A stretch of 64,000 bases of DNA from Bradyrhizobium sp. DOA9 (GTDB lineage: Bacteria > Pseudomonadota > Alphaproteobacteria > Rhizobiales > Xanthobacteraceae). The stretch spans positions 565,690-629,689 of the forward strand of contig NZ_DF820425.1 of the NCBI RefSeq assembly GCF_000617845.2, given 5' to 3'. Of the stretch, positions 29,575 to 62,955 are shown in pieces. The notes below the pieces were generated by a model that saw only the letters and a list, made by a program, of their open reading frames with translations, did no database searches and was not told where the DNA came from. A program made the position numbers and the translations under genes. The first letter of the stretch is position 1, and each line of letters starts with the position of its first letter.

Positions 29575-31656
29575 TCAGGCGCTCTTCACGGCGCCCAGGA
29601 AACCCTCGACCGCGACGCGAAGACGATCGGCATCCGCCGACATCTTCTTGACGGACTCCGACAGCACCGTGCCGGCATTGCCGGTCTCCTGGTTGAGCCT
29701 GGCGACGCTGCCGATCGTGTCGGTGACCTCGCGTGTGCCCTGGGCCGCCTGCTGGAAGTTGCGCGAGATCTCCGTCGTCGCCGCGCGCTGCTCTTCGACC
29801 GCGGCGGCAATCGCCGTCATCTTCTCGTCGATGCCGCCGATGGCCCCGCCGATCGAGCGGATCGCGGCGACCGCCTGGCCGGTGGCGCCCTGGATCTCCC
29901 CGACCTGGCGCGAGATCTCTTCCGTCGCGGTCGCGGTCTGCGCCGCGAGGCTCTTGACCTCGCCCGCGACCACGGCGAAGCCGCGGCCGGCTTCGCCGGC
30001 GCGCGCGGCTTCGATGGTGGCATTCAATGCCAGCAGGTTGGTCTGGGCCGCGATCGCGTTGATCATCTTCACGACCTCGCCGATGCGGCTCGCCGTCTGA
30101 TCGAGGATCTCGACCGTCGCATTGGTCTGCTCGGCCTGGGCCACGGCCTCGCGGGCCTCGCGCGCGCTCGACTGCACCTGCGCGGAGATCTCGCCCACGG
30201 ACGCGGAGAGCTCCTCGGTCGCGGCGGCGATGGTCTCGAGATTGTTGGTGGCCTGCTCGGCGGCGGAGGAGACCGCCGCGGTCTGGCTGCTCGATTCCGT
30301 GACCAGCGAGCGCACGCCGCTTGCGGTGGCGTCGAGCTCGCGCGTCGAGGCCGCAACGCTCTGGATCACCGCCTGCACCGTGTCGTCGAAGCTGCGGCAG
30401 GCGGCATCGACGGTGCCGGAGCGGGCGAGCTGAAGCGCCTGCTGTGATTCGCGTTCCCGTCCGAGCCGCTCTGCGGTCGCCGCGCTTTCGCGCAGGCTTT
30501 CGAGCGCAGCCGCCATGGTGCCGAACTCGTCGGGATGCCGCGATTGCGGCACCGGCGTCGCATAGTCGCGGGCGCTGATGCGGGCGATGGCGTCGAGGAT
30601 GGCGCGCACCGGCCGCATCAGGCGGTTGCGCACCACGAACACGCCGGCCAGAGTCACGGCCAGGGCGAGCAGGAACGCGAAGGATTGTACGATGAGATTG
30701 GTCAGCGCTTTCGCCTGAACCGTCTCCGCGTGCGCGATCGACAGGTCGAGCGCCTTGCTCGCGACCGCGACGATGGATCCGAACGGAGCCTGGCACAACG
30801 CGTTCCATTCCGACGCCGGCATCGCGGGACGGCCGCTGCCGTCGAAGCCCTTGGTGATCTCGCCGATCTGCTTGAGGGCGCCGTCGGTCTTGGCCTTCGC
30901 CTCCTTGGCCGTGTTGACGAGGTCGGCCGGCATGTCAGGCGCAGCAAGCAGTTCCTCCATGCCGGTCCAGCCGGCGGTGACGACGCCGTTCCATCCGGCC
31001 ACGGTCTGCTTCTGGGCGTCGTCGAGCGGCTTGCTGGCGTTGACGTTCGGCCGCAGGGTCGAGCACTGGATGCCGTAGCGGTCGCGCACCTGCCAGGCGA
31101 GGCGGCGGGCCTGGATCATGCGGGCGATGTAAGGATCGTTCATCCAGGCGCGGTTCGACACCGCGGTGGACGCGAGATTGGCGGTCTCGATCACCTTGGT
31201 GACCGAATCGTACCAGAGCGCGGTGCGCTCCAGCTTGCGCTCGGCGCGCGGCAGCTTGGCCTCGTCGTAGAACAACTGGAATTTCGGCGCGGCCTCGCTC
31301 CAGCGCTGCTTCAGCGTGCCGGCGAGCTCGTCGCGGCGGGCGAATTCGACGGTGGAGAGCGCGGCGCTGATGGCGTCGAAGCCGGCCTGTTCCGCCTTCT
31401 CGGCAACGCCGAGCTTGGCGCGCGGATCGTCCTCGCCGAGCAGCGCGCTCTGGGCATCGCCGCGATTGCTGCGCAGGGCAACCACGCCATGGAAGATCGA
31501 CTTGTCGGCATTCGCGAGCCGCTCGGTCTCCAGACTGTCGCTATAGCGGCCGAAAGCCCCGACCATCTGGATCGCCGTGCTGGTCAGCGCGCCGGCCGCC
31601 AGCAGCGTCATCAGGACCAGGAGGAGCGTGCTTACCGAATTCTTAAAGATGGACAT
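29575..31656 (-). CDS. Methyl-accepting chemotaxis protein
   Basis: 693 residues. TM1 at about 8-30 and TM2 at about 310-335 flank a helical periplasmic sensor domain of about 280 residues. A HAMP linker follows ('[19 protein letters not shown]'), then a long coiled-coil signalling domain with the conserved hairpin '[20 protein letters not shown]'. It senses an unknown ligand and controls CheA. It stands alone, without che genes nearby. Confidence 0.93.
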
Positions 31657-52370: not shown

Positions 52371-52552
52371 CGTCGGACGTGGCAGGCTGGGCAAGCCCCT
52401 CCGCTGCCCGGACCGACATCCCTGGGCTTCGCAGCTCACGGAACGGAGGAGGGTGTCGCGCGTTGCCGCGCCGCTCTCAAGATGACGCTACCCAAGGACC
52501 CAGTCGCCTTTGCTGGGCGAGTTAGGACGGGAACGCCGGCGGGCCAGAACAG

Positions 52553-55500
52553 ATGCGTCGTATCCGACTCGTTATCGCAGATCGCCGTCCGATCGTTTTG
52601 CAGGGTTTTGAGTCGCTGTTTGCGGCCGAGCGTGACTTCGAGATCGTTGCGTCCTGCATCACCGGCGGCGGTTGCCTCGACGCCGTCCGGACGTTGGCGC
52701 CGGATGTCGCCCTCGTCGAGGACGGATTTTCCGACGTGCCGGCTTCCGGAATGCTCGCCGCCGTCGGTGCCGAAGACCTTCCCACGCGGCTGGTGTTCTA
52801 CACCGCATCGGTTGCCCGTGGCGACCTCGCGGCGGCAGTCGCTGCGGGCACCTGCACTGCCATTCCGATGCGCGAGGAGCCCGAAAGCCTGCTGCAGTCC
52901 CTGAGGCTGGTGGCGCCGACCGCCGACCGCGCGGCGCCCCGCAAGCCCGATAGTGGCACACTCGGCGAAAATGGCCTGACAGAGCTGACGGATCAGGAGC
53001 GCAAGATCATACGCCTGGTCGCCAGCGGCATGTCGAACAAGGAGATTGCGCGCCAGCTCAAGACCACCGCAAGCGCCATTGAGGCGCGGATCGATCACAT
53101 CACGGCGCAGCTTGGCGTCAAGAACCGGACGGAACTCGCAAGATTCACCCTGTCACGCCTTTACGGCGGCGTCGGCGCGCTTGCAGCTCTGATTTGGGCA
53201 CTGCTCGAGGACATTCGACCCGCCAGCGCGACCGAAGTCGATGCTGCGGATGCCGACACCGTCACGGTCATGACCGCAGACGGCACCGGCGCGGTCGTGA
53301 CGATCAAGATTGCCCCCCAAGCGGCGAATGCTGCTTCGGGCAAAACGGCCAGAGCCGTCCGCGCCGAAAATTCTCCGGCCGACATGCCGGCGCGGGCAAG
53401 CAGGCTCATCGAATCCCGAGCCGACATTGCCCACAGCACGATCACAGTGCCGACACTCACCCCTTCACGGGCGGGCTTGAGCAGCGCCGGCACCTTCATG
53501 ATGACGGCAGTCGGAGTCTCGCTCCTCAGCAGTCACGCCCAGGCGTCCACTGCCTGGGGCAACCCGAGCGATGGCTTTGCGTGGGCTGACGCGAACGCCC
53601 CACGCGAGTTGGCCGCCCTCGATAGTCCCGACAGGCCCGACCTCATCGGCTTCGACAAGGTGCCCTGGCTCGATCCCGACATCCACCATGACGCATTCGC
53701 CTTCGAGGCTATTCGAGGCGATGCCATGGCCAGAGGCGACGAACCTCGGATCATCGATGCGGCCGCGCACGAGGACGGCGTCGGCGCCAGCGGCAACCCT
53801 CACACCGGATCCGGCGCCATCGACGCTCTGACCGACAATGGCGGCATCGAGCCCGGGGCCGCGACGGGCGCCAAGAATGCGGAAGACAGCACAACACAGA
53901 CGGCTGCAATAGACGCTGTCGATCATGGACAATCGCAGCGCGATTTGCACGTTTCGGACGAGGGCGCCGCGGCCGGCAATCCGCAGGCCGAGCATGAGCC
54001 ACCGGGCCAAGGCTCAGATCATGGGCAATCGCAGGCTTCGGAGAATACCGCGGCAGGCGGCAACAAGCACACCGAGCTCGGTCCGGCGGAGGATGCTTCC
54101 GCGCATGGGCAATCGCAACGCGATTTGCATGTTTCGGACCAGGGCGCGGCAGCCGGCAAGCCGCACGCCGAGCACGAGCCGCCGGGCCGCAGCTCAAATC
54201 AAGGGCAATCGCAGGCTTCGGAGAATGGCGCAGCCTCCGGCAAGAAGCACACCGAACTCGCCTCGGCGGAGGACGATTCCACGCCGGGACAATCGCAACG
54301 TGATTTGCACGCTTCGGACAACGGCGTGGCAGCCGGCAAGCCGCACGCCGAGCACGAGCCGCCGGGCCACGGCTCAAATCAAGGACAATCGCAGGCTTCG
54401 GAGAATGGCGCGGCAGCCGGCAACAAGCACACCGAGCTCGCCCTGACGGGGGACGATTCCCCGCCGGGACAATCGCAGCGCGATTTGCACGCTGCGGACA
54501 ACGGCGCGGCAGCAGGCAAGCCGAATGCCGAGCACGAGCCACCGGGCCACGGCTCAGATCAAGGGCAATCGCAGGCTTCGGAGAACGCCGCGGCAGCCGG
54601 CAACAAGCACACCGAACTCGCCCTGGCGGGGGACGATTCCACGCCGGGACAATCGCAGCGTGATTTGCACGCTTCGGACAACGGCGCGGCAGCAGGCAAG
54701 CCGAATGCCGAGCACGAGCCGCCGGACCACGGCTCAGATCAAGGGCAATCGCAGGCTTCGGAGAACGCCGCGGCAGCCGGCAACAAGCACACCGAACTCG
54801 CCCTGGCGGGGGACGATTCCACGCCGGGACAATCGCAGCGCGATTTGCACGCTGCGGACAACGGCGCGGCAGCAGGCAAGCCGAATGCCGAGCACGAGCC
54901 ACCGGGCCACGGCTCAGATCAAGGGCAATCGCAGGCTTCGGAGAACGCCGCGGCAGCCGGCAACAAGCACACCGAGCTCGCCCCGGCGGGGGACGATTCC
55001 ACGCCGGGACAATCGCAGCGTGATTTGCACGCTTCGGACGAGGGGGCAGCAGCCGGTAACGATCAGGCCAAGCAGGACTCAGCCGGACTCGACTCCAATC
55101 CCGGGCAGGTGCATCGCGCTTCGGACGACGGCTCCGCAGCCGAGCAGCGCGTCAGTGACGATGTATCGGGAAGCGATGCCAGTTCCGGCCAAGCGCAGCG
55201 TGACTTGCACCAGGCGCATTCAAACGCTTCCGACGATCTGCAGGCGGAGCCGAGCCAAAAGGCTGGCGGCAACGACCAAGCCAACCATGACCCCGGTCCG
55301 GCACAAGCAGCTGACGTGCCCGCATCCGGAGATTCCTTTCATTTCAAGAATGATATGGCAGCGGCCAAAGATTCAGATCATCTCGAGAATGCGTACGCAG
55401 CCGACACGGCCGAACATGGTCTCCCTCGAGCCGGACACGCTGAACTGGCGCTGATCCCCGATGCGGACCTGGTTGGCCCGTCGCACGCGGAGCAAAGCGC

Positions 55501-55555
55501 CGCAGATCACGCAAGAGGCGTTGGGCATCATCCGACGCATGATCTTTTCGTGTAG
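52553..55555 (+). CDS. Pseudo-receiver LuxR protein with hydrophobic segments and 60-residue repeats
   Basis: 1000 residues. Residues 1-120 are a response-regulator-like receiver, but the phospho-acceptor position is Glu56 ('DVALVEDGF'), the acidic pair is reduced to Asp10 followed by Arg, and the conserved Lys is Met106, so it should not be phosphorylated. Residues 141-203 form a normal LuxR helix-turn-helix ('LTDQERKIIRLVASGMSNKE'). Hydrophobic stretches lie at about 203-218 and 309-326. Residues 459-878 are seven 60-residue repeats, with an eighth degenerate start at 879, each opening with GQSQRDLH or a variant. The C-terminus is His/Asp/Ala-rich, ending 'THDLFV'. Composition suggests a disordered acidic tail. 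It stands alone, and the role is unknown. Confidence 0.85.
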   Translation: MRRIRLVIADRRPIVLQGFESLFAAERDFEIVASCITGGGCLDAVRTLAPDVALVEDGFSDVPASGMLAAVGAEDLPTRLVFYTASVARGDLAAAVAAGTCTAIPMREEPESLLQSLRLVAPTADRAAPRKPDSGTLGENGLTELTDQERKIIRLVASGMSNKEIARQLKTTASAIEARIDHITAQLGVKNRTELARFTLSRLYGGVGALAALIWALLEDIRPASATEVDAADADTVTVMTADGTGAVVTIKIAPQAANAASGKTARAVRAENSPADMPARASRLIESRADIAHSTITVPTLTPSRAGLSSAGTFMMTAVGVSLLSSHAQASTAWGNPSDGFAWADANAPRELAALDSPDRPDLIGFDKVPWLDPDIHHDAFAFEAIRGDAMARGDEPRIIDAAAHEDGVGASGNPHTGSGAIDALTDNGGIEPGAATGAKNAEDSTTQTAAIDAVDHGQSQRDLHVSDEGAAAGNPQAEHEPPGQGSDHGQSQASENTAAGGNKHTELGPAEDASAHGQSQRDLHVSDQGAAAGKPHAEHEPPGRSSNQGQSQASENGAASGKKHTELASAEDDSTPGQSQRDLHASDNGVAAGKPHAEHEPPGHGSNQGQSQASENGAAAGNKHTELALTGDDSPPGQSQRDLHAADNGAAAGKPNAEHEPPGHGSDQGQSQASENAAAAGNKHTELALAGDDSTPGQSQRDLHASDNGAAAGKPNAEHEPPDHGSDQGQSQASENAAAAGNKHTELALAGDDSTPGQSQRDLHAADNGAAAGKPNAEHEPPGHGSDQGQSQASENAAAAGNKHTELAPAGDDSTPGQSQRDLHASDEGAAAGNDQAKQDSAGLDSNPGQVHRASDDGSAAEQRVSDDVSGSDASSGQAQRDLHQAHSNASDDLQAEPSQKAGGNDQANHDPGPAQAADVPASGDSFHFKNDMAAAKDSDHLENAYAADTAEHGLPRAGHAELALIPDADLVGPSHAEQSAADHARGVGHHPTHDLFV
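53927..55186 (+). repeat. 180-bp in-frame tandem repeat array
   Basis: Seven 180-bp units, with the word GGACAATCGCAGCG or a close variant at 53927, 54107, 54287, 54467, 54647, 54827 and 55007. A decayed eighth start at 55187 is still in exact register. Each unit codes two related halves of about 32 and 28 residues, both opening GQSQ. Units from 54467 to 55006 are nearly identical, and the outer ones more diverged. Confidence 0.93.
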
Positions 55556-57557: not shown

Positions 57558-57884
57558 ATGCGGATCATAGCCCGGCGTACGTTGCGGGAGTTCGTCGAGG
57601 CGCGGCGAGGACATAAGGACCACGCCGCCCTCAAAGCTGCCCTCGATGCCTGGTTCGATGAGACCAAGAAGGCGCGGTGGTCCAGCGCCGCGGACATCAA
57701 ACGCAGCTACGCGACCGCCAGCATCATCTCGGCAGATCGCGTCGTCTTTAACATCAAGGGAAACGACTATCGACTCGTCGCCGCCATTGATTTCGAGAAG
57801 AGCATCGTGTGGATCAAATGGATCGGCACGCACCGAGACTACGACAGGATCAACGTAAGAGAGGTTCGACATGGCGAGGACTGA
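57558..57884 (+). CDS. higB: HigB-type toxin
   Basis: 108 residues, the HigB/RelE-like mRNA interferase family ('KAALDAWFDETKKARWSSAA', 'FNIKGNDYRLVAAIDF', 'WIGTHRDYDRI'). It would cut mRNA on ribosomes. The order toxin then antitoxin, with a 14-base overlap with the next gene, is standard for HigBA. Confidence 0.88.
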   Translation: MRIIARRTLREFVEARRGHKDHAALKAALDAWFDETKKARWSSAADIKRSYATASIISADRVVFNIKGNDYRLVAAIDFEKSIVWIKWIGTHRDYDRINVREVRHGED

Positions 57885-58251
57885 GATCAAGCCGATTCGG
57901 ACGAAACGGGATTATGAGGCCGCCCTCAAGGAGGTGGAGCGCCTCTGGGGTGCCAAGTCGGGCACACCAGAGGGCGACCGGCTGGATGTGCTCGCGACGC
58001 TGATCGATGCATACGAGGCTGTGCATTACCCAATGGATCCACCTGACCCTATTGAGGCCATCAAGTTTCGGATGGAGCAGCAAGGGCTCACCCGGCGGGA
58101 CCTGGAAGAGATCATTGGGACGCGCACCCGCATCGCCGAGGTTTTGAACCGAAAACGCGGGCTATCGATCACGATGATCCGGCGCCTTCACGAGCGCCTT
58201 GGCATCTCCGCAGACGTCCTGATCAGGCCTAGTCGAAAAAAGGCGGCCTAG
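57871..58251 (+). CDS. higA: HigA-type antitoxin
   Basis: 126 residues. The N-terminal toxin-binding part is followed by an Xre-type helix-turn-helix near 70-115 ('GLTRRDLEEIIGTRTRIAEV', 'LNRKRGLSITMIRRLHERLG'). It neutralises HigB and represses the operon, probably through the inverted repeat at 57524. Confidence 0.88.
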   Translation: MARTEIKPIRTKRDYEAALKEVERLWGAKSGTPEGDRLDVLATLIDAYEAVHYPMDPPDPIEAIKFRMEQQGLTRRDLEEIIGTRTRIAEVLNRKRGLSITMIRRLHERLGISADVLIRPSRKKAA

Positions 58252-59985: not shown

Positions 59986-60231
59986 ATGAGAACGACGCTG
60001 ACCATCGACGACGACGTCGCGGCGCAACTCAGGCGGCTGCGCCGCCATGGCGACCTCAAATTCAGGGACCTCGTCAACGAGGCATTGCGGCGGGGCCTGC
60101 GGGACATGAACCAGGCGCCGCGAAGGCGCGAGGTCTTGCGTACCCGGGCCTTCGACATGGGTAAGCCACTCATCAACATCGATAACGTCGCGGAAGCGCT
60201 GTCGCATCTCGAAGGCGATGGCTTCAAGTGA
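59986..60231 (+). CDS. VapB-like antitoxin (ribbon-helix-helix)
   Basis: 81 residues. 'MRTTLTIDDDVAAQLRRL' then 'KFRDLVNEALRRGLRDM' is a ribbon-helix-helix DNA-binding antitoxin, with a C-terminal toxin-binding tail ('FDMGKPLINIDNVAEAL'). The stop overlaps the toxin start as GTGA. Confidence 0.87.
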   Translation: MRTTLTIDDDVAAQLRRLRRHGDLKFRDLVNEALRRGLRDMNQAPRRREVLRTRAFDMGKPLINIDNVAEALSHLEGDGFK

Positions 60232-60659
60232 TCCTTGTTGATGCGAACATTCTTCTTTATGCCTGCAATTCGACGGCCGATCTGCACGCCGAAAGCCGCA
60301 AGTGGCTGGACGAGAAGCTGAATGGAACGGCTCGCGTGGGACTGCCGTGGCCAAGTCTGCTCGCATTCCTGCGCATCGCAACGAACCCAAGAGCGTTTCG
60401 CAAGCCGCTGAGCATCGCGGACGCGTGGGAGCAGGTTTCGAGCTGGCTCTCTGCGGAAACGGTCTGGGTGCCCGAACCAGCTGAGCACCACGCCGCTGTG
60501 TTAGGCAAGCTCCTGGCGCTTCCCGGCATTTACGGAAATCTCGTTCCGGACGTTCATCTTGCAGCGCTCGCGATCGAGCACGGGCTCACCCTGTGTTCGA
60601 CCGATGGAGACTTTGCGAGATTTCCGGAACTCACCTGGTTCAATCCGCTTGCCGCGTGA
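60228..60659 (+). CDS. VapC-like PIN-domain toxin
   Basis: 143 residues from a GTG at 60228. PIN-domain acidic residues are seen in 'MILVDANILLYA' (Asp5), the 'LVPDVHLAALA' segment and 'CSTDGDFARF'. It is expected to be a Mg-dependent RNase. It is coupled to the RHH antitoxin by a 4-base overlap. Confidence 0.88.
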   Translation: MILVDANILLYACNSTADLHAESRKWLDEKLNGTARVGLPWPSLLAFLRIATNPRAFRKPLSIADAWEQVSSWLSAETVWVPEPAEHHAAVLGKLLALPGIYGNLVPDVHLAALAIEHGLTLCSTDGDFARFPELTWFNPLAA

Positions 60660-61995: not shown

Positions 61996-62451
61996 GTCAG
62001 CTCTCCCCAGAACGTTTTCGAGCGAAGCGCCGTCGGGCTCGCATCAAGAGAACGCGCCAAACAACAATCCGGAGCTCCGTGCCGACGTCATTGGAACGGA
62101 GCCCCGGCGCGCCGGGAAAAGAGCAACGGATGATGCAGCTGAGATGACCGGAGCATGACAATGCGATGATCGGAACGCCGACGCCGCGCTTCAGATCGAA
62201 GCGAATCGCGCGGAAGTCTACGGAAGTCGAACCATTTCGCGAGCCATCGAGTCCGGCGCTGGCGGCGACAGCGGCGTCCTCGCCGGGCAGATGAACGGTG
62301 AATGAATGAACGCGATGTGCGTTGCGGCGCGGAACTGCACCAGGCCACATCGATGCGTCAGCGTGTCCGAAGAAGGAACGTTTGCGCGATTACCAATTTA
62401 TCCCGTGCCTGATTGGCGATTTGATTTTTGGAAACCCTGGAGGAAGTGAAC
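61996..62451. other. Intergenic region without a convincing gene
   Basis: A 456-base gap between divergent genes. Small open frames here are not convincing. It must hold the promoter of the secreted-protein operon, and an AGGAAG ribosome site precedes 62452. Confidence 0.45.
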
Positions 62452-62955
62452 ATGAGGATCCTGAAGCTCTCTGCGGCTGCGGCCGCGCTGCTGGCCGGCA
62501 CGGCGCTCGCAGTTGCGCAATCGAGCTCGACGATCGGTACCGGTGGCTCATCGGCCGGCGGCGGCACCAGCAACTCCACCGTAGGCACCGGTGGCTCTTC
62601 GGCTGGCGGCAGCGGATCGGGCTCTGCATCGACGCTCGGCACGGGCGGTTCGTCGGCCGGCGGCGGCACCAGCTCTTCGACGGTTGGCACCGGCGGCTCC
62701 GCGGCGGGCAGCGGTTCGGGCAGCGGCTCGGCCTCGACGCTCGGCACCGGTGGCTCGTCGGCCGGCGGCGGCAAGAGCTCGTCCAGCGTCGGCACCGGCG
62801 GTTCTGCGGCGGGCAGCGGCTCCACCGTTGGCCAGTCCGGCGCGTCGAAATCGCCCGGCACGGGCGACGGCAAGTCCGGCAGCCATGCCAGCGACATGGG
62901 CCTCGAGAAGGGCAAGGGCCACAACAAGGACGAGTGGAAGAAGGACAAGAACTAG
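62452..62955 (+). CDS. Secreted Gly/Ser-rich repeat protein A
   Basis: 167 residues from the ATG at 62452, with a GGAGGAAG ribosome site. A signal peptide (about 24 residues, cleavage after 'ALAVAQ') is followed by six copies of a GTGGS motif, usually as GTGGSSAGGG or GTGGSAAGSG with S/T linkers. The C-terminus is charged ('GLEKGKGHNKDEWKKDKN'). No known domain. It is the first of three adjacent small secreted proteins of similar composition. Confidence 0.8.
   Translation: MRILKLSAAAAALLAGTALAVAQSSSTIGTGGSSAGGGTSNSTVGTGGSSAGGSGSGSASTLGTGGSSAGGGTSSSTVGTGGSAAGSGSGSGSASTLGTGGSSAGGGKSSSSVGTGGSAAGSGSTVGQSGASKSPGTGDGKSGSHASDMGLEKGKGHNKDEWKKDKN

Follow-up and report, generated by a model that had tools for sequence, protein, structure and literature searches.

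Introduction

Type I export of repeats-in-toxin (RTX) proteins uses a C-terminal signal, about 60 residues long, that is not cleaved off, as stated in a passage of PMC3034196. In Rhizobium leguminosarum, according to excerpts of PMC2275737, the PrsDE system exports at least 13 dissimilar proteins, cadherin-like ones included, whose genes lie in diverse places, and the Rap family and other rhizobial PrsDE substrates appear as cadherin-like exported proteins in parts of the same source and of PMC9298526. Here, we describe a gene of Bradyrhizobium sp. DOA9 that joins the tail of such an exoprotein to the head of a response regulator. It lies at positions 52553–55555 (+) of a 64,000-nucleotide stretch (contig NZ_DF820425.1, positions 565,690–629,689), hereafter the window, to which all unprefixed coordinates below refer. 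In a survey of titles and abstract openings, we found no open-licence literature describing a receiver–helix-turn-helix (HTH) head on a type I exoprotein.

Judged by its sequence, the window gene is a Bradyrhizobium chimera in which a NarL-like receiver–HTH head is followed by a tail from the cadherin/VCBS-RTX exoproteins, which normally carry a FecR-like head. Comparison at this level establishes the chimera and its junction, the homology of the C-terminus, a VCBS relic (at the family level), the loss of the phosphorylation site and of the DNA-contact residues, and the upstream motif. The reading that we prefer, and to which we give an even chance, is that of a stress-induced, type I-exported protein whose repurposed regulator head has probably ceased to act as a normal phospho-switched transcription factor. 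Two features that bear on this reading, a conserved C-terminal module (residues 926–1000) and an EcfG-type motif upstream of the gene, were missing from the initial annotation.

Results

The ATG frame at 52553–55555 (+) is unbroken and encodes 1000 amino acids (aa), and relatives carry the identical head-plus-tail order in a single frame. These results rule out two genes joined by error or by a frameshift; the one-frame fusion claimed in the initial annotation is thus borne out, as is its guess, confirmed by the homolog search, that relatives in Bradyrhizobium are annotated as LuxR proteins. Residues 5–198 match the NCBIfam NarL family (E 4e-21, under the equivalog cut-off). Foldseek found full-length NarL-family regulators, of which 5hev was the best (E 9e-11). 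The receiver of NarL (3eul) was also matched, at a template modelling (TM) score of 0.87–0.90 on the target (two of its chains). The AlphaFold model used in this work had 61 sequences in its alignment and covers the protein up to residue 345.

Heads were compared position by position between the window's clade and 44 rows outside it, called outer forms, which include two short ones (L063, 239 aa; L071, 219 aa). In a NarL-rooted head tree, the window protein groups with the rows whose HTH contacts have changed (described below) in a 73-row clade with a Shimodaira–Hasegawa-like approximate likelihood ratio test (SH-aLRT) value of 100, the outer forms fall outside it, and a 9-row set including the window has an SH-aLRT of 98. 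These two groups are the only ones used from this quick tree, which has a very long outgroup branch and weak basal forks; its RTX and VCBS counts, which came from loose patterns (the VCBS pattern failed), were left unused.

The first domain is a pseudo-receiver at residues 4–120 (52562–52912, +), delimited by the NarL alignment, AlphaFold, and Foldseek. The model gives it the (beta-alpha)5 receiver fold, with a predicted local distance difference test (pLDDT) score of 76–94 across the block; the Pfam Response_reg match is below the cut-off (E 0.21). The order of a receiver fold and then a GerE-type HTH is that of the NarL/FixJ family. Compared with NarL, D13 is kept as D10 and S87 has become T84, while D14, D59, and K109 are R11, E56, and M106, so that the window protein has neither the phospho-accepting Asp nor the full acidic pair nor the conserved Lys of the family. 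The initial annotation had described exactly such a receiver.

The same changes run through the relatives to different extents. Arg stands at the NarL D14 position in all 80 clade rows covering it and in 42 of the 44 outer rows. At the phospho-Asp position, 81 of 82 covering clade rows have Glu and one has Asp; the outer rows have Ala (27), Glu (10), Gly (5), or Asp (2). The Lys position is Met in 86/86 covered clade rows and Lys in 38/44 outer rows. Since three standalone relatives, which end shortly after the HTH, retain the phospho-Asp, loss of the phosphorylation site marks the tailed family.

Could this head still act as a DNA-binding domain? The LuxR/GerE-type HTH occupies residues 142–200 (52976–53152, +), and residues 144–198 match Pfam GerE at E 4.6e-12. 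In NarL, K188, V189, and K192 are the base-contact positions of the recognition helix. The window protein has E177, A178, and D181 there and thus lacks the NarL contact residues. In the outer rows, Lys is found at the K188 position and Val at the V189 position without exception (44/44 each); across P0001–P0089, they are found in 49/89 and 18/89. The window's 16 nearest rows keep neither, having Gln or Glu (10 and 6) at the first position and Ala (16) at the second. At the K192 position these 16 rows have Asp or Glu (11 and 5), and this position is His or Tyr in the outer rows as well and His in 3/3 standalone relatives; therefore, only the first two contact positions are informative. The comparison left out loci with masked bases plus L043, L048, L052, and L053. 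The HTH earlier called canonical is therefore canonical at the level of the GerE profile but not at its contact positions, and the working DNA-binding head proposed with it finds no support, with contacts changed in all 16 nearest rows, though the net charge of the HTH is kept (mean +3.75 in these rows, +3.05 in the outer rows, and +2 in the window protein). In the outer forms, where the HTH is intact, the head may still bind DNA, and for them we favour a role in DNA binding.

Behind the HTH lies a short hydrophobic segment, residues 203–220 (53159–53212, +), assessed by alignment, insertion energy, and AlphaFold. It is conserved and common to the FecR-headed proteins. Alignment of the LuxR-headed P0111 with L024:5568-10313, a FecR-headed protein of the DOA9 genome, begins in this region (P0111:219/L024:137) and continues at 64% identity over a 729-column piece, and the standalone regulators in L066, L067, and L072 end without the segment; the hydrophobic segment is therefore the fusion junction. 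Among 157 proteins that share the linker, 36 have a LuxR head, 113 a FecR-like head, none both, and 8 neither. The linker tree has three head-label changes and is compatible with a single LuxR-head clade (approximately unbiased test, p-AU 0.496, 99 columns).

On hydropathy and insertion-energy scales, the segment has a core of only 13–15 residues and a best 19-residue summed insertion energy of about +2.9, which makes a standard transmembrane helix doubtful. AlphaFold places a low-confidence helix at 205–220, with most of residues 216–345 under pLDDT 50. In all four groups examined, the net charge is positive before the segment and negative after it. An A-x-A-like site follows it in 16/16 nearest, 88/89 clade, 19/20 outer, and 93/109 FecR-headed rows, against a random control of 0.51–0.73 (0.70 for the nearest 16). 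The segment could act as a weak anchor or like a signal, or it could belong to the secreted tail. The two membrane spans proposed in the initial annotation are thus unsupported, as the first is short and the second lies within a VCBS relic. A folded periplasmic sensor domain was not found: residues 222–1000 matched no family.

That relic, a decayed VCBS/cadherin-like repeat, covers approximately residues 260–358 (53330–53626, +) and contains the second hydrophobic stretch (309–326). It was recognised by profile–profile comparison: a profile built on this region of 78 clade members, 69 of which passed filtering, matched VCBS repeats of other proteins with a probability of 99.3% (E 1.4e-20), whereas one reversed and eight column-shuffled controls reached at most 0.4%. 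The VCBS_repeat model was over the cut-off in five of eight clade members tested (P0017, P0045, P0046, P0051, and P0064) and not in P0028, P0030, and P0093. The window protein by itself gave no VCBS or cadherin match, so the relic is visible at the level of the family profile. Further relatives point the same way. Some are annotated as VCBS proteins with cadherin_4, RTX, and Peptidase_M10_C domains, and 18 of 20 outer proteins have RTX in precomputed Pfam matches (PF00353 or PF08548). The FecR-headed L024:5568-10313 (1582 aa) has six cadherin_4 stretches, RTX, and M10_C behind its FecR-like head (Pfam FecR 17.7 bits, below the 24-bit cut-off).

Downstream, a tandem array of 6.3 copies of 180 bp (91% matches; 53927–55056, +) encodes what is predicted to be a disordered hydrophilic spacer, and the earlier description of a disordered tail of 60-residue repeats stands. 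Each 60-residue unit consists of two half units beginning with GQSQ. By a loose pattern, the window protein has 15 GQSQ-like units, whereas the remaining P0001–P0089 rows have a median of 2 and at most 7.

The protein ends in a C-terminal module, residues 926–1000 (55328–55552, +), which reads SFHF ... HxxHDLFV and is a predicted type I export signal. The window C-terminus is DSFHF...HDLFV, and the family keeps SFxF and a final H-D-h-h-h after the repeats (h, hydrophobic). An Asp followed by three hydrophobic residues is the rule for PrtG-type signals. Asp or Glu followed by three mostly hydrophobic end residues closes 112 of 120 LuxR-headed and 105 of 120 FecR-headed listed proteins, as well as 37 of 39 complete loci of at least 500 aa. 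Profiles of C-termini bearing this ending matched each other strongly (clade A with FecR-headed proteins, 98.4%, E 1.1e-14; outer forms with FecR-headed proteins, 97.3; clade A with outer forms, 99.0), while 30 column shuffles for each pair gave at most 3.8, 0.4, and 3.8, respectively, and the reversed control gave 3.1% (clade A with FecR-headed proteins). Among 415 open reading frames (ORFs) of at least 150 aa in ten sampled genome regions, chosen around RTX or exporter genes, three have such endings: a 400-aa RTX protein, a FecR-headed protein, and the window protein. The assignment of an export signal thus rests on homology to the C-termini of FecR-headed VCBS-RTX proteins, and export itself is predicted. 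The genome has four PrtD-type and five HlyD-type exporter genes over the cut-off. The tail had earlier been placed outside the cytoplasm as a surface or periplasmic part; the homology of the C-terminus to RTX/VCBS exoproteins agrees with an outside location, but the route that it suggests is type I export and not a periplasmic loop.

Upstream of the gene, a predicted EcfG-type promoter motif, GGAAC-N16-CGTT, occupies 52440–52464 (+), an exact match 113 bp before the ATG. The consensus GGAAC-N16/17-CGTT is given for EcfG of R. etli in a passage of PMC3892343. Exact copies number two in the window against 0.90 expected, which is not significant alone. Of the 17 clade-A loci surveyed, 16 have the motif at −89 to −113, with varied spacers, against a background of 0.01 per 300-bp strand; owing to their common descent, the 16 do not count as independent events. 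None of 19 outer loci and 1 of 8 P0093-like loci have it, and it is absent from L042, which was among the loci examined, and from the FecR-headed gene in L024. The survey left out L034, L065, L075, and L077, which have no anchor. A NepR gene is present in the genome. Together, the motif and its position suggest that the window protein is likely made under general stress through EcfG. The second exact copy, at 30782–30806 (−), is at chance level unless conserved. An autoregulatory dyad was also considered and dropped, as no dyad upstream of the gene was common to more than two loci; it was the dyad listing that revealed the EcfG-like motif.

The head family is widespread in the genus. Matches at E 1e-30 or better occur in 137 of 195 same-genus genomes. 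Among the matches listed (150 rows), 92 rows in 81 genomes are in frames of at least 500 aa; frames shorter than 350 aa account for 56 rows, each in a different genome, and 30 genomes have both. A whole-genome scan gave 53 loci, 50 of them in Bradyrhizobium and three in metagenome-assembled genomes (Hyphomicrobiales, Beijerinckiaceae, and Alphaproteobacteria); at some of them, masked bases (L048, L053) or contig ends, including upstream of L054, make the tails unreadable. DOA9 has a single copy, and the next match in its genome is at E 8e-11.

Selection was followed by median pairwise ratios of nonsynonymous to synonymous substitution rates (dN/dS). Within the window's clade, represented by 5 sequences and thus 10 pairs, the receiver has the lowest value of the protein (0.19), followed by the C-terminal 72 residues (0.32) and the HTH (0.33), and the repeat region evolves fastest (0.61). 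The corresponding values for receiver, HTH, and C-terminus are 0.22, 0.39, and 0.51 in eight other clade-A loci; 0.18, 0.22, and 0.35 in six P0093-like loci; 0.39, 0.27, and 0.71 in L060/L062/L064/L073; and 0.27, 0.10, and 0.81 in L057/L061/L066/L067/L072/L074. Loci without the anchor motif (L027, L030, L033, L034, L065, L075, and L077) were skipped, and L069 is outside the set. Some outer forms thus guard the HTH most, and the window's clade guards the receiver most. Because these values show selection, the gene is not a free-drifting pseudogene.

Is the loss of the HTH contacts tied to the erosion of the tail? We considered that the HTH might be kept or lost together with RTX. This was broken by seven long-tailed outer proteins (L057, L060, L061, L066, L074, L075, and P0112), all of which keep the HTH and none of which matched the VCBS or RTX Pfam families. 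The tails of L061 and L066 gave no NCBIfam family match, and that of L075 has a weak serralysin-type remnant in NCBIfam. For this reason, the 44 rows are named outer forms and not RTX forms.

Standalone regulators of the head family lie about 3.8–4.7 kb from the tailed gene at several loci. In L066, L067, and L072 the offset is about −3.8 kb (upstream), and coordinates place a standalone neighbour likewise in G005, G018, G066, G067, G087, G116, G135, and G193. The neighbour that keeps the phospho-Asp (three loci) is, from its sequence, a possible phospho-competent partner or parent of the tailed protein. The P0093-like tailed genes (L041, L051; L043) have another response regulator of the LuxR type upstream of them, which starts M-R-I/V-L-I-V-D-D-H.

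Elsewhere in the window, the ORF at 62428–62955 (+) is rich in Gly and Ser, repeats TIGTGGSSAGGG-like units, and begins in a signal-like way; it looks like a repeat protein that is exported. Small adjacent ORFs at 57558–58251 (+) and a further ORF at 60228–60659 (+) are presumably a HigB/HigA-type-like pair and a PIN-like gene, respectively. At about 6.68 Mb and 7.10 Mb of the G000:C1 sequence, there are a 9838-aa RTX frame and clustered genes of the type I exporter, HlyD, Peptidase_C93 (LapG-type), and RTX kinds.

Discussion

How might such a chimera work? In the reading that we prefer, EcfG would turn the gene on under general stress, and the C-terminal signal would be taken by a PrtD-type exporter whose gene lies elsewhere in the genome. 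A type I system of the PrsDE/PrtD type would then export the protein C-terminus first. The acidic Gly/His/Ser-rich repeats would serve as an easily exported spacer that distances the C-terminal module, and the hydrophobic segment and the folded head would come last, either stalling at the inner membrane, as FecR-like heads may, or exiting too. In the window's branch, the head would have lost DNA binding.

Several points weigh against this reading. The net charge of the HTH is kept, and from its sequence the window head may still bind DNA. The C-terminal profiles were made only from rows already bearing the ending, and three other ORFs with RTX motifs end otherwise (L096, L099, and the giant-frame piece in L100). 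The window protein has no RTX repeats in family scans, although these are the usual partner of this export signal. A type I apparatus would need to unfold the folded head. The C-terminal 72 residues evolve fast (0.32; 0.71–0.81 in outer groups), with only SFxF and the last residues held. HTH loss would not simply follow tail erosion; because an outer branch with an eroded tail keeps its HTH under the strongest selection, the two losses do not appear to be tied. Finally, the nearest PrtD match over the cut-off is about 430 kb away, and ORF clustering across the loci and inspection by eye at 11 of them, judged from ORF starts and without a family scan of the neighbours, showed no adjacent exporter gene, so that a dedicated neighbouring exporter was dropped as a candidate. 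The distance itself is no objection, since PrsDE substrates are encoded in diverse places, according to the excerpts of PMC2275737.

A more elaborate possibility, which we consider doubtful, is that a phospho-dead NarL-type regulator came to head its own type I-secreted adhesin. Export would empty the cell of the regulator, so that its control would read secretion or the matrix; in the window's branch, it would have been retired under general stress and kept as a last-to-leave cap.

Alternatively, the protein might be a membrane-tethered one-component regulator of the ToxR/CadC kind, with residues 203–220 as the anchor, the tail outside, and kinase-free DNA binding. The conserved segment, with its charge positive before and negative after in four groups, fits an N-in/C-out topology; the A-x-A-like sites in 16/16 nearest rows (control 0.70) make a signal-anchor possible; and the head is under purifying selection. 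Against these stand the short core (13–15 residues, energy about +2.9), the identical segment behind a FecR-like head, the identity of the second span as a VCBS relic, and the changed HTH contact residues, and we regard a tethered regulator as unlikely.

Equally unlikely for the window protein, in our judgement, is a self-exporting regulator, whose head would bind DNA inside the cell while type I export drains it, so that transcription reports export in an FlgM-like manner. The idea suits the outer forms, which combine a contact-intact HTH (44/44; dN/dS 0.10 in one group) with an export-type ending, and in L066, L067, and L072 they have a standalone relative some 3.8 kb upstream that is phospho-competent. 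In the window protein, on the other hand, the contacts are gone, a close standalone relative is missing from the genome, where the next match is at E 8e-11, and no conserved dyad was found upstream.

The erosion of RTX and VCBS, the fast repeat region (dN/dS 0.61), and the kept net charge of the HTH would also suit a cytoplasmic transcription factor whose vestigial disordered tail is not exported and merely modulates the head. That the SFxF and D-h-h-h ending outlasts this erosion (112/120), while the contact residues are lost, makes such a factor quite improbable. The stepwise losses of RTX, VCBS, and HTH contacts along the tree could finally suggest that the fusion is decaying and has no function in itself, which we hold to be very improbable in view of the open frame, the dN/dS of 0.19–0.33 in the head and 0.32 in the C-terminus, and the positionally conserved promoter motif.

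If the export proposed here is true, regulator heads have been moved onto secreted matrix proteins across a genus of nitrogen-fixing symbionts, the head family being present in frames of at least 500 aa in at least 81 of 195 genomes of the genus Bradyrhizobium. Genes titled "LuxR regulator" in databases may then be miscounted as regulators. The outer forms would lend themselves to testing whether a type I system can couple transcription to export. The window's branch would be a case of a DNA-binding domain that loses its contacts while its fold and the export signal are kept.

Among known proteins, the FecR-headed VCBS-RTX proteins of Bradyrhizobium (L024:5568-10313, P0121–P0240) are alike in the hydrophobic segment, the linker, the tail (as seen in P0111), and the C-terminal module, and differ in having a FecR-like head in place of the window's receiver–HTH. 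The cadherin-like PrsDE proteins of rhizobia resemble the window protein in their cadherin/VCBS-type family, in their C-terminal export-type region, and in an exporter encoded elsewhere; their descriptions, in the parts of those sources cited above, are without a receiver–HTH head, and the window protein is without recognisable cadherin or RTX repeats. NarL/FixJ regulators such as NarL, DesR, and LiaR/VraR share the fold and domain order of residues 1–200, whereas the window protein lacks the phospho-Asp, the second acidic residue, and the Lys, has changed contacts, and carries an 800-residue tail. In ToxR and CadC, too, a head of the DNA-binding type is followed by a hydrophobic segment and then an outer part, but their heads are winged-helix domains of the OmpR type and their span is full, while the window protein has a doubtful span and an exoprotein-like C-terminus. 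FlgM, an anti-sigma factor exported via flagella and thereby removed from the cell, is a different protein that uses a different export system; its likeness lies in the idea, applicable to the outer forms, of a regulator removed by secretion.

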